Assembly (NCBI GenBank): GCA_919902045.1
Contig: CAKKSP010000031.1
Span: 1-43,640, forward strand
Origin: Omnitrophica bacterium GWA2_41_15
GTDB taxonomy: Bacteria; Omnitrophota; Gorgyraeia; Gygaellales; Profunditerraquicolaceae
Direction: 5' to 3'
DNA length: 43,640 nt
The first letter of the stretch is position 1. Each line of letters begins with the position of its first letter. This document shows positions 41,089 through 43,640 of the stretch, piece after piece. The translations under genes were made by a program, and so were the position numbers. The notes below the pieces were generated by a model. It saw only the letters and a program-made list of their open reading frames with translations. It did no database searches and was not told where the DNA came from.

Positions 41089-42435
41089 TTAAATCTCCGA
41101 AATCGTATAAGTAATACGCGTTGCATAATCTCCTGCTAATACATCTTTTGAAGTAGTAAGCTCATAAATCACTTTGAATTTATCAGGAGCCCCTTCTTTA
41201 TCTGAAACAAAAATCACAGTGTCGTTTGCCCTGATCTCTGTTGCTTGTAAAAACGGCAAAGACCCCTTAGTCTCTAAAGATTCCTGCCGCATCTGAAAAA
41301 ATTTCTCCGGGATCGCTTTGCCTTCCTTATTTACTAACCCCGAAGGCAGCTGCTGGCTGACCTGATAGCGGCGTCCGGTATTATTTTTTATTTCAATGAC
41401 AGCTTCGGAATGCCTTGGCGCCTGGCCTATTTTAACATCGCGGAACTCTATATTTCCTCCGCTTTCCGGGCTTACCTTCAATTCAAAAACCGGAGCAATT
41501 TCAACCTCTAAAATAAAATTTTCTAAAATATGCTGCCCCACCGAATCTTCAAGCAGATATTTAAGCCCTGTGCGGGATTTTCCGGATTTAAGCATCTCCG
41601 GATTAATCAAACCGTAAGTAACCGTAAAATTAACAGAATCACTCGATGAAGACGTATAAATTGCTTCCTGGCGTAACGATAACGGAAGATTCTGATTCTG
41701 CCCGATTACACTGCAACTTACTGCTTCAAGCCCAAGCTCATTTCCGGATAACACTTCAAAAGGCGCTTCGATTGCCTGCAGAATTTTATACGGTTGGCCG
41801 CCTCCGCGGGTAATCGCAAAGTTAACATCAAAAGTTTGAGACTGTGGCCTGTTTGTATCAAGCGTAATAAATTTAGCTCCGGAGGAAGTTTTTATATCTA
41901 CTCCCCAACCACCTTCAATCTCAACAAAAATATTCATCATTACCTTAACTGATTGTTGACTAGAATCAATCGGCTCTAAAACAAAAGCAATTCTGCCGCG
42001 ATAATTACCAGAAGGAACCGTAAGCGGAGGTTTGATCAAATATACTAACTTGAAAGAATCGTTTGACCCTGAAGTATTTGAAGTATAGACGATGTTACGG
42101 TTTAAAGTCACCACACTTTCATTCTCGGCAGAAAGTGTCCCGAAAGAGTTGCTTCCGCGCAAACCGTAAACAGCAAAATTTGCCGTAGGTAAGACAACTC
42201 CTTGATCATTAGTAAGAGGATCAAGCAACATTTGAACTACCTGATATCGTTTTCCGAGGTCGCTTGTAATACTTAAGATAAGCTCTTTACTGACGGGCTT
42301 TGTAATACCGCTTACTTTACCAAAACGCAGGTCATTACCGCCGTCATAAGGGGTGGCGCTGAAGCTAAAAGCAGCAAAACAATTCGAGGCGGGTATGATC
42401 AGAAGCAGAGCTAACACCAGGAGAATCTTTTTCAT
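41089..42435 (-). CDS. Secreted three-repeat beta protein, possible fibre tip or minor subunit
   Basis: 448 aa from the ATG at 42435 with AAGGAG; the longer ORF start coincides with a promoter -35 box. Signal peptide (MKKILLVLALLLIIPASNCFA). Three divergent repeats of about 140-150 residues share an IxFxxVxxG opening, an (V/I)xxxQxLxxP segment, YTSxxxxSxxFxVxYxL, and an xGxYxxRIxYxL ending. The last unit closes the protein with GDYATRITYTISEI, like a terminal subunit strand. I do not recognise the family. It has its own promoter and precedes the subunit gene by about 130 bases. Confidence 0.65.
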   Translation of the reverse strand: MKKILLVLALLLIIPASNCFAAFSFSATPYDGGNDLRFGKVSGITKPVSKELILSITSDLGKRYQVVQMLLDPLTNDQGVVLPTANFAVYGLRGSNSFGTLSAENESVVTLNRNIVYTSNTSGSNDSFKLVYLIKPPLTVPSGNYRGRIAFVLEPIDSSQQSVKVMMNIFVEIEGGWGVDIKTSSGAKFITLDTNRPQSQTFDVNFAITRGGGQPYKILQAIEAPFEVLSGNELGLEAVSCSVIGQNQNLPLSLRQEAIYTSSSSDSVNFTVTYGLINPEMLKSGKSRTGLKYLLEDSVGQHILENFILEVEIAPVFELKVSPESGGNIEFRDVKIGQAPRHSEAVIEIKNNTGRRYQVSQQLPSGLVNKEGKAIPEKFFQMRQESLETKGSLPFLQATEIRANDTVIFVSDKEGAPDKFKVIYELTTSKDVLAGDYATRITYTISEI

Positions 42436-42457: not shown

Positions 42458-42486
42458 AATATACATCTGCTCTCTCGCATTGTCAA
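42458..42486 (-). promoter_or_regulatory. Sigma70-type promoter for the three-repeat protein
   Basis: TTGACA, 17-base spacer, TATATT, ending 23 bases before the ATG. A 13-bp direct duplication (CCCTTCCTTTTAT twice, plus strand) lies immediately upstream. Confidence 0.65.
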
Positions 42487-42509: not shown

Positions 42510-42761
42510 TTATGACGGATCTCGCTCTTGCCTATCTGAACCCATAAGGTTCCACAAACCTCTATCTTCAGAATCAACAGCCGAAATATTACCACCAGCA
42601 ACATTAGTACTTTTATCTGTAAACGACTCTGAAGGTTTTAGCCAACCGGATGCGCCGCTTTCCATCGTTTTCTGAGTTCCTGCCTCTTGAATAGCATATA
42701 CCGTTGTAACAACGATGATAACAACGATTATTAATAGTATTATTATTCCTGTTTTTTTCAT
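42510..42761 (-). CDS. Small single-helix membrane or exported protein
   Basis: 83 aa from the ATG at 42761 with GAGGAAAG upstream. Its N-terminal hydrophobic helix is MKKTGIIILLIIVVIIVVTTVYA, and the polar tail (QKTMESGASGWLKPSESFTDKSTNVAGGNISAVDSEDRGLWN) has no known motif and no Cys. It could be a bitopic protein or a cleaved small exported protein. It is the first gene behind the strong promoter and the candidate riboswitch at 42794-42915, so its expression is likely conditional. Confidence 0.6.
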   Translation of the reverse strand: MKKTGIIILLIIVVIIVVTTVYAIQEAGTQKTMESGASGWLKPSESFTDKSTNVAGGNISAVDSEDRGLWNLMGSDRQERDPS

Positions 42762-42793: not shown

Positions 42794-42915
42794 AAAAAAA
42801 CAAAAAGCCGGCCTGACCCTTTTTTAGTCATCCGGCTCGAAACAATTCCGTGGCAGCTCTGACAATTACCTCCATAATTATCAGAAATGCCGGATTTAAG
42901 AGTTTATAAATACTT
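42794..42915 (-). ncRNA. Candidate riboswitch/attenuator leader with mutually exclusive stems
   Basis: Reading the minus strand, ATCCGGC pairs with a later GCCGGAT to close a domain that holds a strong hairpin (CTGATAATTA-TGGAGG-TAATTGTCAG) and a single-stranded GCCACGGAATTGTTTCGA segment. The same GCCGG can instead pair with CCGGC to make a terminator (see 42800-42837). I do not recognise the aptamer; it lacks the GGCAAACC and GCAAAG of GEMM RNAs. Confidence 0.6.
42800..42837 (-). terminator. Rho-independent terminator within the leader
   Basis: AGCCGG..GAC / GTC..CCGGCT stem followed by TTTTTGTTTTTTT on the minus strand, ahead of the 42761 gene. Its 5' arm is shared with the closing stem of the leader domain, the layout of a transcriptional riboswitch. 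Confidence 0.7.
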
Positions 42916-42921
42916 TGTAAA

Positions 42922-42950
42922 AGTATAATCTATTTCTTCCCTTTTGTCAA
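42922..42950 (-). promoter_or_regulatory. Consensus sigma70 promoter of the leader and small-protein operon
   Basis: TTGACA, 17-base spacer, TATACT on the minus strand. Transcription would start near 42914 and run into the structured leader. It is among the best promoters in the window. Confidence 0.75.
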
Positions 42951-42958
42951 GGGAACAA

Positions 42959-43306
42959 TCATTCTAAGTTAGGCTGCGCCTTCAAGTTCTCTTTCAGCCA
43001 TAAAGTCCGCGCCAGGCCAATTAGCTTTTCATGTATAAGATGAATCCCGACCTGCTTATAGTTTCCTTTTCGTTCCGGCCTTATCCACGATACCTCCCCT
43101 TCTACCGCAAGAGGCTCATGATGATCAGGTATATCAAGCCACATTTTAAGGTTATTTTCCATGGGGATATACCCACTTGTTACAAAACAAATGCCGTTTG
43201 CGCTGATATTCAACGTCTGTGCCACATCTTCAGTGCCGTTAAGAGGATTCTGGTACCGCAAAGGAATTTTTACTGCAATTCTTTCAAAATACCTTCGGTC
43301 GTTCAT
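42959..43306 (-). CDS. PilZ-domain protein (cyclic-di-GMP receptor type)
   Basis: 115 aa from the ATG at 43306, which has GGAGAG upstream; the longer ORF start has none. A single PilZ domain fills the protein: the N-terminal c-di-GMP-binding RxxxR (RYFER) in MNDRRYFERIAVKIPLRY, the second motif NISANG (N/DxSxxG), then GEVSWIRPERKGNYKQVGIHLI. Both ligand motifs look intact. It has no output domain, so it acts through a partner. It overlaps the preceding partial gene by about 23 bases and stops just before the promoter of the surface operon. Confidence 0.88.
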   Translation of the reverse strand: MNDRRYFERIAVKIPLRYQNPLNGTEDVAQTLNISANGICFVTSGYIPMENNLKMWLDIPDHHEPLAVEGEVSWIRPERKGNYKQVGIHLIHEKLIGLARTLWLKENLKAQPNLE

Positions 43307-43640
43307 TTTCTCTCCATATCTGTGGCTGGGATTTATGTTCAGATAACGCAAAAAGCGTGATCTTAAGAGAATGCATAAACCGCACCATATATAATTTATC
43401 TCCGGAAGTAGCGTAAATATTTGCTTTCATCCGGCAGAAGAATTTTTCAACTTGATCTTTATCATTATGCTCTTTTCGTACGTAAAGATAAGGCAGAGGT
43501 TTTGCTTCTTTAAAGTTAGGATCGATTTCTTTTACGATACAAACCATATGCCGATTAATAACCCTGCGCACTCCTTCTTTGTCGGTAATTTCTGAAGAAG
43601 AAATTATCTTTCTTCGTTTTCCAATTGAAGTCAGGTTTTT
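43284..43640 (-). CDS. Hypothetical protein, N-terminus beyond the window
   Basis: The frame is open to the edge (KNLTSIGKRRKIISSSEITDKEGV before the first track residue), so the gene starts outside. The visible 118 residues (GVRRVINRHMVCIVKEIDPN, LPYLYVRKEHNDKDQVEKFFCRMKANIYATSGDKLYMVRFMHSLKI) show no motif I recognise. It is translationally overlapped with the PilZ gene and probably part of the same unit. Confidence 0.5.
   Translation of the reverse strand, partial: KNLTSIGKRRKIISSSEITDKEGVRRVINRHMVCIVKEIDPNFKEAKPLPYLYVRKEHNDKDQVEKFFCRMKANIYATSGDKLYMVRFMHSLKITLFALSEHKSQPQIWRENERPKVF

Follow-up and report, generated by a model that had tools for sequence, protein, structure and literature searches.

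Does the DNA between a PilZ gene and a block of predicted surface-protein genes in Omnitrophica bacterium GWA2_41_15 encode a regulatory leader RNA, and of which kind would this RNA be? The window, i.e. the whole stretch of DNA that was analysed, comprises 43,640 nt (assembly GCA_919902045.1, contig CAKKSP010000031.1; the genome is labelled G000 below). Within the window the gene for an uncharacterised protein of ~110 aa is followed by the PilZ gene, the RNA, an open reading frame (ORF) of 83 aa and then a second promoter. The 83-aa ORF had no clear homologue in 147 related genomes. Directly beyond the window end (G000:C31 about 43640-43740) lies a run of Ns that is flanked on either side by a copy of the ~110-aa gene start and marks an assembly gap. 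An earlier note, made from the sequence alone, had described the leader as an unrecognised structured RNA. This description holds, since a promoter matching 11 of 12 consensus positions, a leader and a terminator are all present, relatives keep the RNA, and the Rfam scan proposed in that note matched no known family.

Table. Features of the leader RNA locus (window coordinates).
Feature	Position	Strand	Basis or remark
Sigma70-type promoter TTGACA-17-TATACT of the leader	42922..42950	-	11/12 match
Leader RNA	42794..42915	-	start inferred from -10 box; family model match 42801-42898
5' switching strand AUCCGGC, used by P1 or, extended by one A, by P1'	42889..42895	-	sequence and folds
P2 hairpin with conserved GGAGG loop (loop G's 42873-42869)	42857..42886	-	covarying stem
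P1' 3' strand UGCC-AC-GGA, partner UCCGGCA 42894-42888	42847..42855	-	covarying helix
P1 3' strand GCCGGAU, also terminator 5' arm	42830..42836	-	sequence and alternative fold
Intrinsic terminator AGCCGG-A-UGAC / GUCA-GG-CCGGCU with U-tract	42794..42837	-	covarying helix
Small protein of 83 aa, predicted to be exported; first ORF past the terminator	42510..42761	-	ORF list
Second promoter TTGACA-17-TATATT before the 448-aa gene	42458..42486	-	11/12 match
448-aa predicted exported protein, Ig-like domains	41089..42435	-	BLAST clustering and structure model
PilZ-domain protein, upstream context and not part of the RNA	42959..43306	-	Pfam PF07238, E 2.6e-11
~110-aa 'MRDLLFK' gene, 3' part, continuing past the window end	43284..43640	-	alignment A3

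On the minus strand, ATCCGGC (42895-42889) and GCCGGAT (42836-42830) form an exact 7-bp stem, here called P1. The GCCGG of the P1 3' strand can alternatively pair with CCGGC (42811-42807) in the terminator, the stem of which consists of AGCCGG (42837-42832) with CCGGCU (42811-42806) plus UGAC (42830-42827) with GUCA (42817-42814), followed by the U-tract TTTTTGTTTTTTT. The terminator was absent from the output of a simple pattern scan for terminators because of the stem and loop rules of that scan. For the whole leader (126 nt) the folding energy is -41.9 kcal/mol (z -4.6), a stability that none of 200 shuffles reached. The part before the terminator 3' arm, in which the P1 stem closes, has a folding energy of -26 kcal/mol (z -3.9). 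Two rival structures thus emerge from folding, namely P1 in the truncated RNA and P1' together with P2 and the terminator in the full-length RNA. The double duty of GCCGG in stem and terminator, as claimed in the earlier note, is confirmed by sequence and folds; P1', the helix that holds the covarying partner of the 5' strand, had been overlooked.

Rfam 15 returned no match to the leader at the gathering threshold, and a permissive search yielded noise only. BLAST searches of the leader against the 147 related genomes recovered homologous stretches at about 70-90% identity, in which promoter, hairpin, GCCACGG and terminator follow each other as in the window, and all named records with the terminator pattern belong to Candidatus Omnitrophota. 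Two covariance models were built, the first from 14 and the second from 58 sequences. The first matched 74 of the 147 relatives at E<=0.05 (up to eight copies per genome) and 41 at E<=1e-5, many of these with more than one copy, where matches weaker than about 1e-4 are untrustworthy. With the second, 37 of 384 genomes of the phylum were matched at E<=1e-5, 34 of which fall into the same family or order. With the family model the window site reaches 66.3 bits (E 7.7e-14), the window sequence being among the model's own 58, and this score together with homologues carrying the same parts in many genomes indicates that the leader is more than a chance structure. The genome of the window encodes a single copy, and a BLAST search of the leader against this genome did not find a second one. 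Two weak matches were removed, one of them (L135) a cyclic di-GMP-I (c-di-GMP-I) riboswitch and the other (L132) apparently spurious. Two copies on the same strand, 2-3 kb apart, were observed in G023 (L109; 650-735 and 2584-2672) and in G063 (L125; 2014-2113 and 4997-5084, the latter a weak match with E 2e-4). Like riboswitches and cis-acting attenuators, the RNA is structured, is conserved between species and lies in the 5' leaders of genes that are related to each other. The family appears to be new and specific to Omnitrophota, and its kind, an attenuating leader RNA, is already known.

P1', the P2 hairpin and the terminator covary strongly. Over 58 sequences 88.7% of the cells in these three elements are paired, 24 of 25 pairs show two-sided changes, and covariation amounts to 0.396, compared with 0.201 for shuffles and no more than 0.146 when the structure is slid. 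These pairing and covariation figures are inflated, as the alignment had been fitted to this structure. The two helices of P1' are paired to 77% and 88% with two-sided changes in all six pairs, and its fourth pair varies between AU (20), UA (13), GU (7) and GC (3). The terminator helix is paired to 96% over the 58 homologues, with two-sided changes in 11 of 12 pairs. The sequence of the P2 stem varies freely and its loop is conserved, reading GGAGG in 61 of 70 members and AGAGG, GGGGG or GGAGA in the remainder. Unpaired conserved bases are few, namely the GGAGG loop and the AC in GCC-AC-GG.

P1 is a different matter. When the 70 members were folded at full length, 69 contained the terminator, 47 contained P1' and one contained P1, and when the RNA was cut before the terminator 3' arm P1 formed in 47 and P1' in 19. 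At a slightly different fold setting P1 was found in 49 of 70, versus 18 after shuffling of the 5' strand and 41 after 5' strands had been exchanged between members, and because of the latter value P1 conservation could partly reflect that of P1'. P1 is 82.7% paired, which is not above shuffles (61 of 500 shuffles reach the same pairing). A permutation test on duplexes gave p 0.03 for P1 and p 0.15 for P1', where cutting the segments at P2 is the probable reason for the higher value. A clear P1 is missing in about a quarter to a third of the members; five members have P1 intact and P1' broken, and about ten have neither. As far as sequences can tell, it is therefore the consensus of P1 that is conserved, and there is little covariation specific to single members. 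The earlier note had proposed P1 as closing stem and had looked to relatives for conservation of the pairings: the RNA itself and P1', P2 and the terminator are conserved there, as is the sequence of P1, but the covariation of P1 is not significant. Predicted energetics and sequence conservation speak for terminator and antiterminator excluding each other; the covariation of P1 does not.

In nearly all loci where this could be called, the gene downstream of the RNA is close and co-directional. Three exported families account for most of these genes: large proteins (21 loci) with N-termini like IFQQ-GFAQIA-ELNLA, homologues of the 448-aa protein (19 loci) and TPR-containing proteins (5 loci). 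In four extended loci of the large-protein class the longest nearby ORFs measure roughly 1000-2500 aa. The 448-aa protein was predicted to be a chain of Ig-like domains (pLDDT 80), and the best match of its model in the PDB was a CfaB pilin fusion with an E value of 8.8e-19 and a TM score of only 0.28. A neighbouring gene at locus L139 encodes TPR repeats and a pilus-formation (secretin-type) N domain, which suggests a fibre or secretion operon. That the leader precedes surface-protein genes, as the earlier note had it, is thus seen across homologous loci.

Of 70 homologues, 57 have a promoter with at least 10 of 12 matches in the position of the leader promoter, where about 1.7 would be expected from shuffles. 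A conserved LacI-type palindrome, GAAANCGCTTTC, occurs near the promoter; it lies between promoter and RNA in L104, L075, L106 and L128, and upstream of the ~110-aa gene in L219, L221, L222, L226-L229, L232 and L235. A trivial explanation of the locus would be an ordinary terminator of the PilZ operon next to a chance promoter, both unregulated. The RNA does separate PilZ from the following gene, which has the same orientation, but conservation of promoter, P2 loop and P1' extends across many genera and to loci without PilZ upstream, and we regard this explanation as very improbable.

The loci fall into two classes with respect to promoters. Of the 19 loci in the 448-aa class, 14 have another promoter past the terminator, where 0.3 would be expected, so that control of the 448-aa gene by the leader alone is doubtful. 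In the large-protein class no second promoter was found (0 of 21), and all 21 loci have a close co-directional gene. The statement that the leader controls the first gene of the surface-protein block accordingly stands in part: the leader precedes the 83-aa ORF, but the 448-aa gene has a promoter of its own. The RNA of the 448-aa class may also be a self-terminated transcript, and either a terminated product or a second regulated input is possible there. This leads to the question whether the RNA might be a stand-alone small RNA that acts in trans, for example via the GGAGG loop, and merely lies upstream of surface genes. Most members do form a full unit from promoter to terminator, the P2 loop is far more conserved than the P2 stem, and the strong promoter after the terminator in the 448-aa class would fit a separate transcript. 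Yet the 21 loci of the large-protein class lack such a promoter, co-directional downstream genes of few families are not needed for an action in trans, and the conserved competition for the terminator arm would have no obvious role. A small RNA acting in trans is hence unlikely in our view, and a stand-alone small RNA as the only explanation for all loci was dropped when splitting the downstream genes into two classes reversed the picture for the large-protein class. Attenuation is the best fit for this class, with its single promoter, single terminator and a 5' strand that is predicted to be able to block or release the latter.

Upstream of the RNA, the usual neighbour is the gene for the ~110-aa protein (17 loci). 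Adjacency to PilZ, which the earlier note had singled out, is found here and in three other loci but is not the usual arrangement, and in the large-protein class neither PilZ nor the ~110-aa gene adjoins the RNA. The ~110-aa family (MRDLLFK) is basic and present as a single copy in 103 of the 147 relatives. No match was found in Pfam, NCBIfam or PDB, nor did its predicted all-beta fold yield a significant match in the PDB. As a dedicated RNA-binding partner it was rejected, because searches did not find it in two RNA-rich genomes, G024 with eight RNA matches and G064 with four. A second conserved leader RNA was observed just upstream of the ~110-aa gene (L218-L236, and beyond the window at G000:C31:43948-44043). 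Its layout is CCCCACCAGCCACG ... GGGGAUAGCCGGGUUGCC ... AGGAGGAA in a loop ... GGCAACCCGGC, and it scores as a weak c-di-GMP-I type in G000 and L234 and has no Rfam match in most others.

The PilZ gene in the operon, abundant c-di-GMP-I riboswitches and a nearby weak c-di-GMP-I match provide a link between c-di-GMP and the RNA that is contextual only, and the nucleotide ligand which the earlier note found attractive stays hypothetical. It is conceivable that the RNA is a derived relative of the c-di-GMP-I riboswitch (RF01051) that senses c-di-GMP or a related dinucleotide. Both occur in the same genomes (c-di-GMP-I riboswitches in 137 of the 147) and with surface-related genes, both have terminators that reuse the 3' strand, and by eye their 3' halves have the words GCCACGG and AGCCGGRUUGMC (AGCCGGRUUG in the shorter form) in common; in addition, the match at G000:C31:43948-44043 (33 bits) lies on the same strand, upstream of the gene before PilZ. 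Against such a relationship, neither RF01051 nor related families matched the RNA in the window or at 20 homologous loci, even at permissive thresholds, and the RF01051 and RF03167 covariance models gave no match at the RNA at gathering score. Unlike the c-di-GMP-I riboswitch, the RNA has a continuous helix in place of the ligand-holding A-rich internal loops, and it lacks the second helix with tetraloop receptor. Furthermore, the genes after the c-di-GMP-I sites covered in five of these genomes belong to other families, the one exception being the weakly matching site ahead of the ~110-aa gene. A derived c-di-GMP-I riboswitch is consequently a highly unlikely explanation. As a separate observation, c-di-GMP-I riboswitches are very abundant in Omnitrophota, with up to 17 per genome, and precede pilin-like, haemagglutinin-like and glycosidase genes in the relatives.

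Attenuation by a leader peptide, with translation starting from the GGAGG of the P2 loop (NUG CCA CGG stop), was also considered. UUG, AUG or CUG does occur 9 nt past GGAGG and opens a three-codon ORF in some members, e.g. AUG CCA CGG UAA. But ATG, GTG or TTG is in range in only 30 of 70 members, ORF length is not conserved, and the UG is accounted for by P1' pairing and is gone where P1' uses another pair, so that a leader peptide seems scarcely credible. Leaders bound by CsrA/RsmA likewise have GGA in a hairpin loop, but the loop here can also read AGAGG or GGGGG. Regulation by CsrA was rejected since CsrA was detected in only 7 of 147 relatives (above cut-off in 5), with no strong RNA carrier among them; G000, G007, G018, G019 and the other strong carriers had none. 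Processive antitermination leaders (LoaP, RfaH/ops, UpxY) share a leader hairpin before surface-gene blocks, but the relatives studied here have one NusG and no paralogue in all but one case (a single copy in 135 of 136 genomes with a match), and antitermination by a NusG paralogue was discarded. Target RNAs of ANTAR proteins are defined by two hexaloop hairpins with A1 and G4, of which one is seen here, with the loop UGGAGG.

We consider it probable that the RNA is a transcription-attenuating leader of a new, Omnitrophota-specific family, and the family is best read as a riboswitch-like attenuator. Transcription would begin at the RNA's own sigma70-type promoter, and the P2 hairpin with its GGAGG loop would fold first. 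If the 5' strand AUCCGGC paired with UGCCACGGA, P1' would form and leave the terminator free to stop transcription; if it paired with GCCGGAU instead, P1 would occupy the terminator 5' arm and allow read-through into the surface gene. A factor recognising P2 or its loop, be it a small molecule, a protein or a ribosome, probably biases the choice between P1 and P1'. The RNA family is conserved, its P1', P2 and terminator covary, it is placed before genes of exported proteins, and both states are energetically feasible; the role of P1 as antiterminator, control by a signal and the sign of this control are inferred. With orphan riboswitch candidates and riboswitches that act on intrinsic terminators the RNA shares the 5' leader, a structured domain, stems that are predicted to be mutually exclusive, an intrinsic terminator and several copies per genome before functionally related genes. 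Differences are that covariation of the antiterminator is not significant here, that conserved unpaired bases are few, and that one class of loci has a second promoter past the terminator. The more specific proposal of an orphan riboswitch class of one Omnitrophota order, which would respond to a surface- or host-contact-related signal by turning on genes for fimbria-like and large exported proteins, is possible but rather doubtful.

Omnitrophota are uncultured and mostly ultra-small, and they are believed to attach to other cells by means of large surface proteins and pili (PMC10066038). Our literature search found no regulatory RNA described for Omnitrophota and no paper dealing with their riboswitches or with cyclic di-GMP in them. 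A leader RNA family that marks surface-protein genes would offer a handle on an Omnitrophota regulon, and its signal might be identified by a simple assay on the RNA, with no need for a culture.
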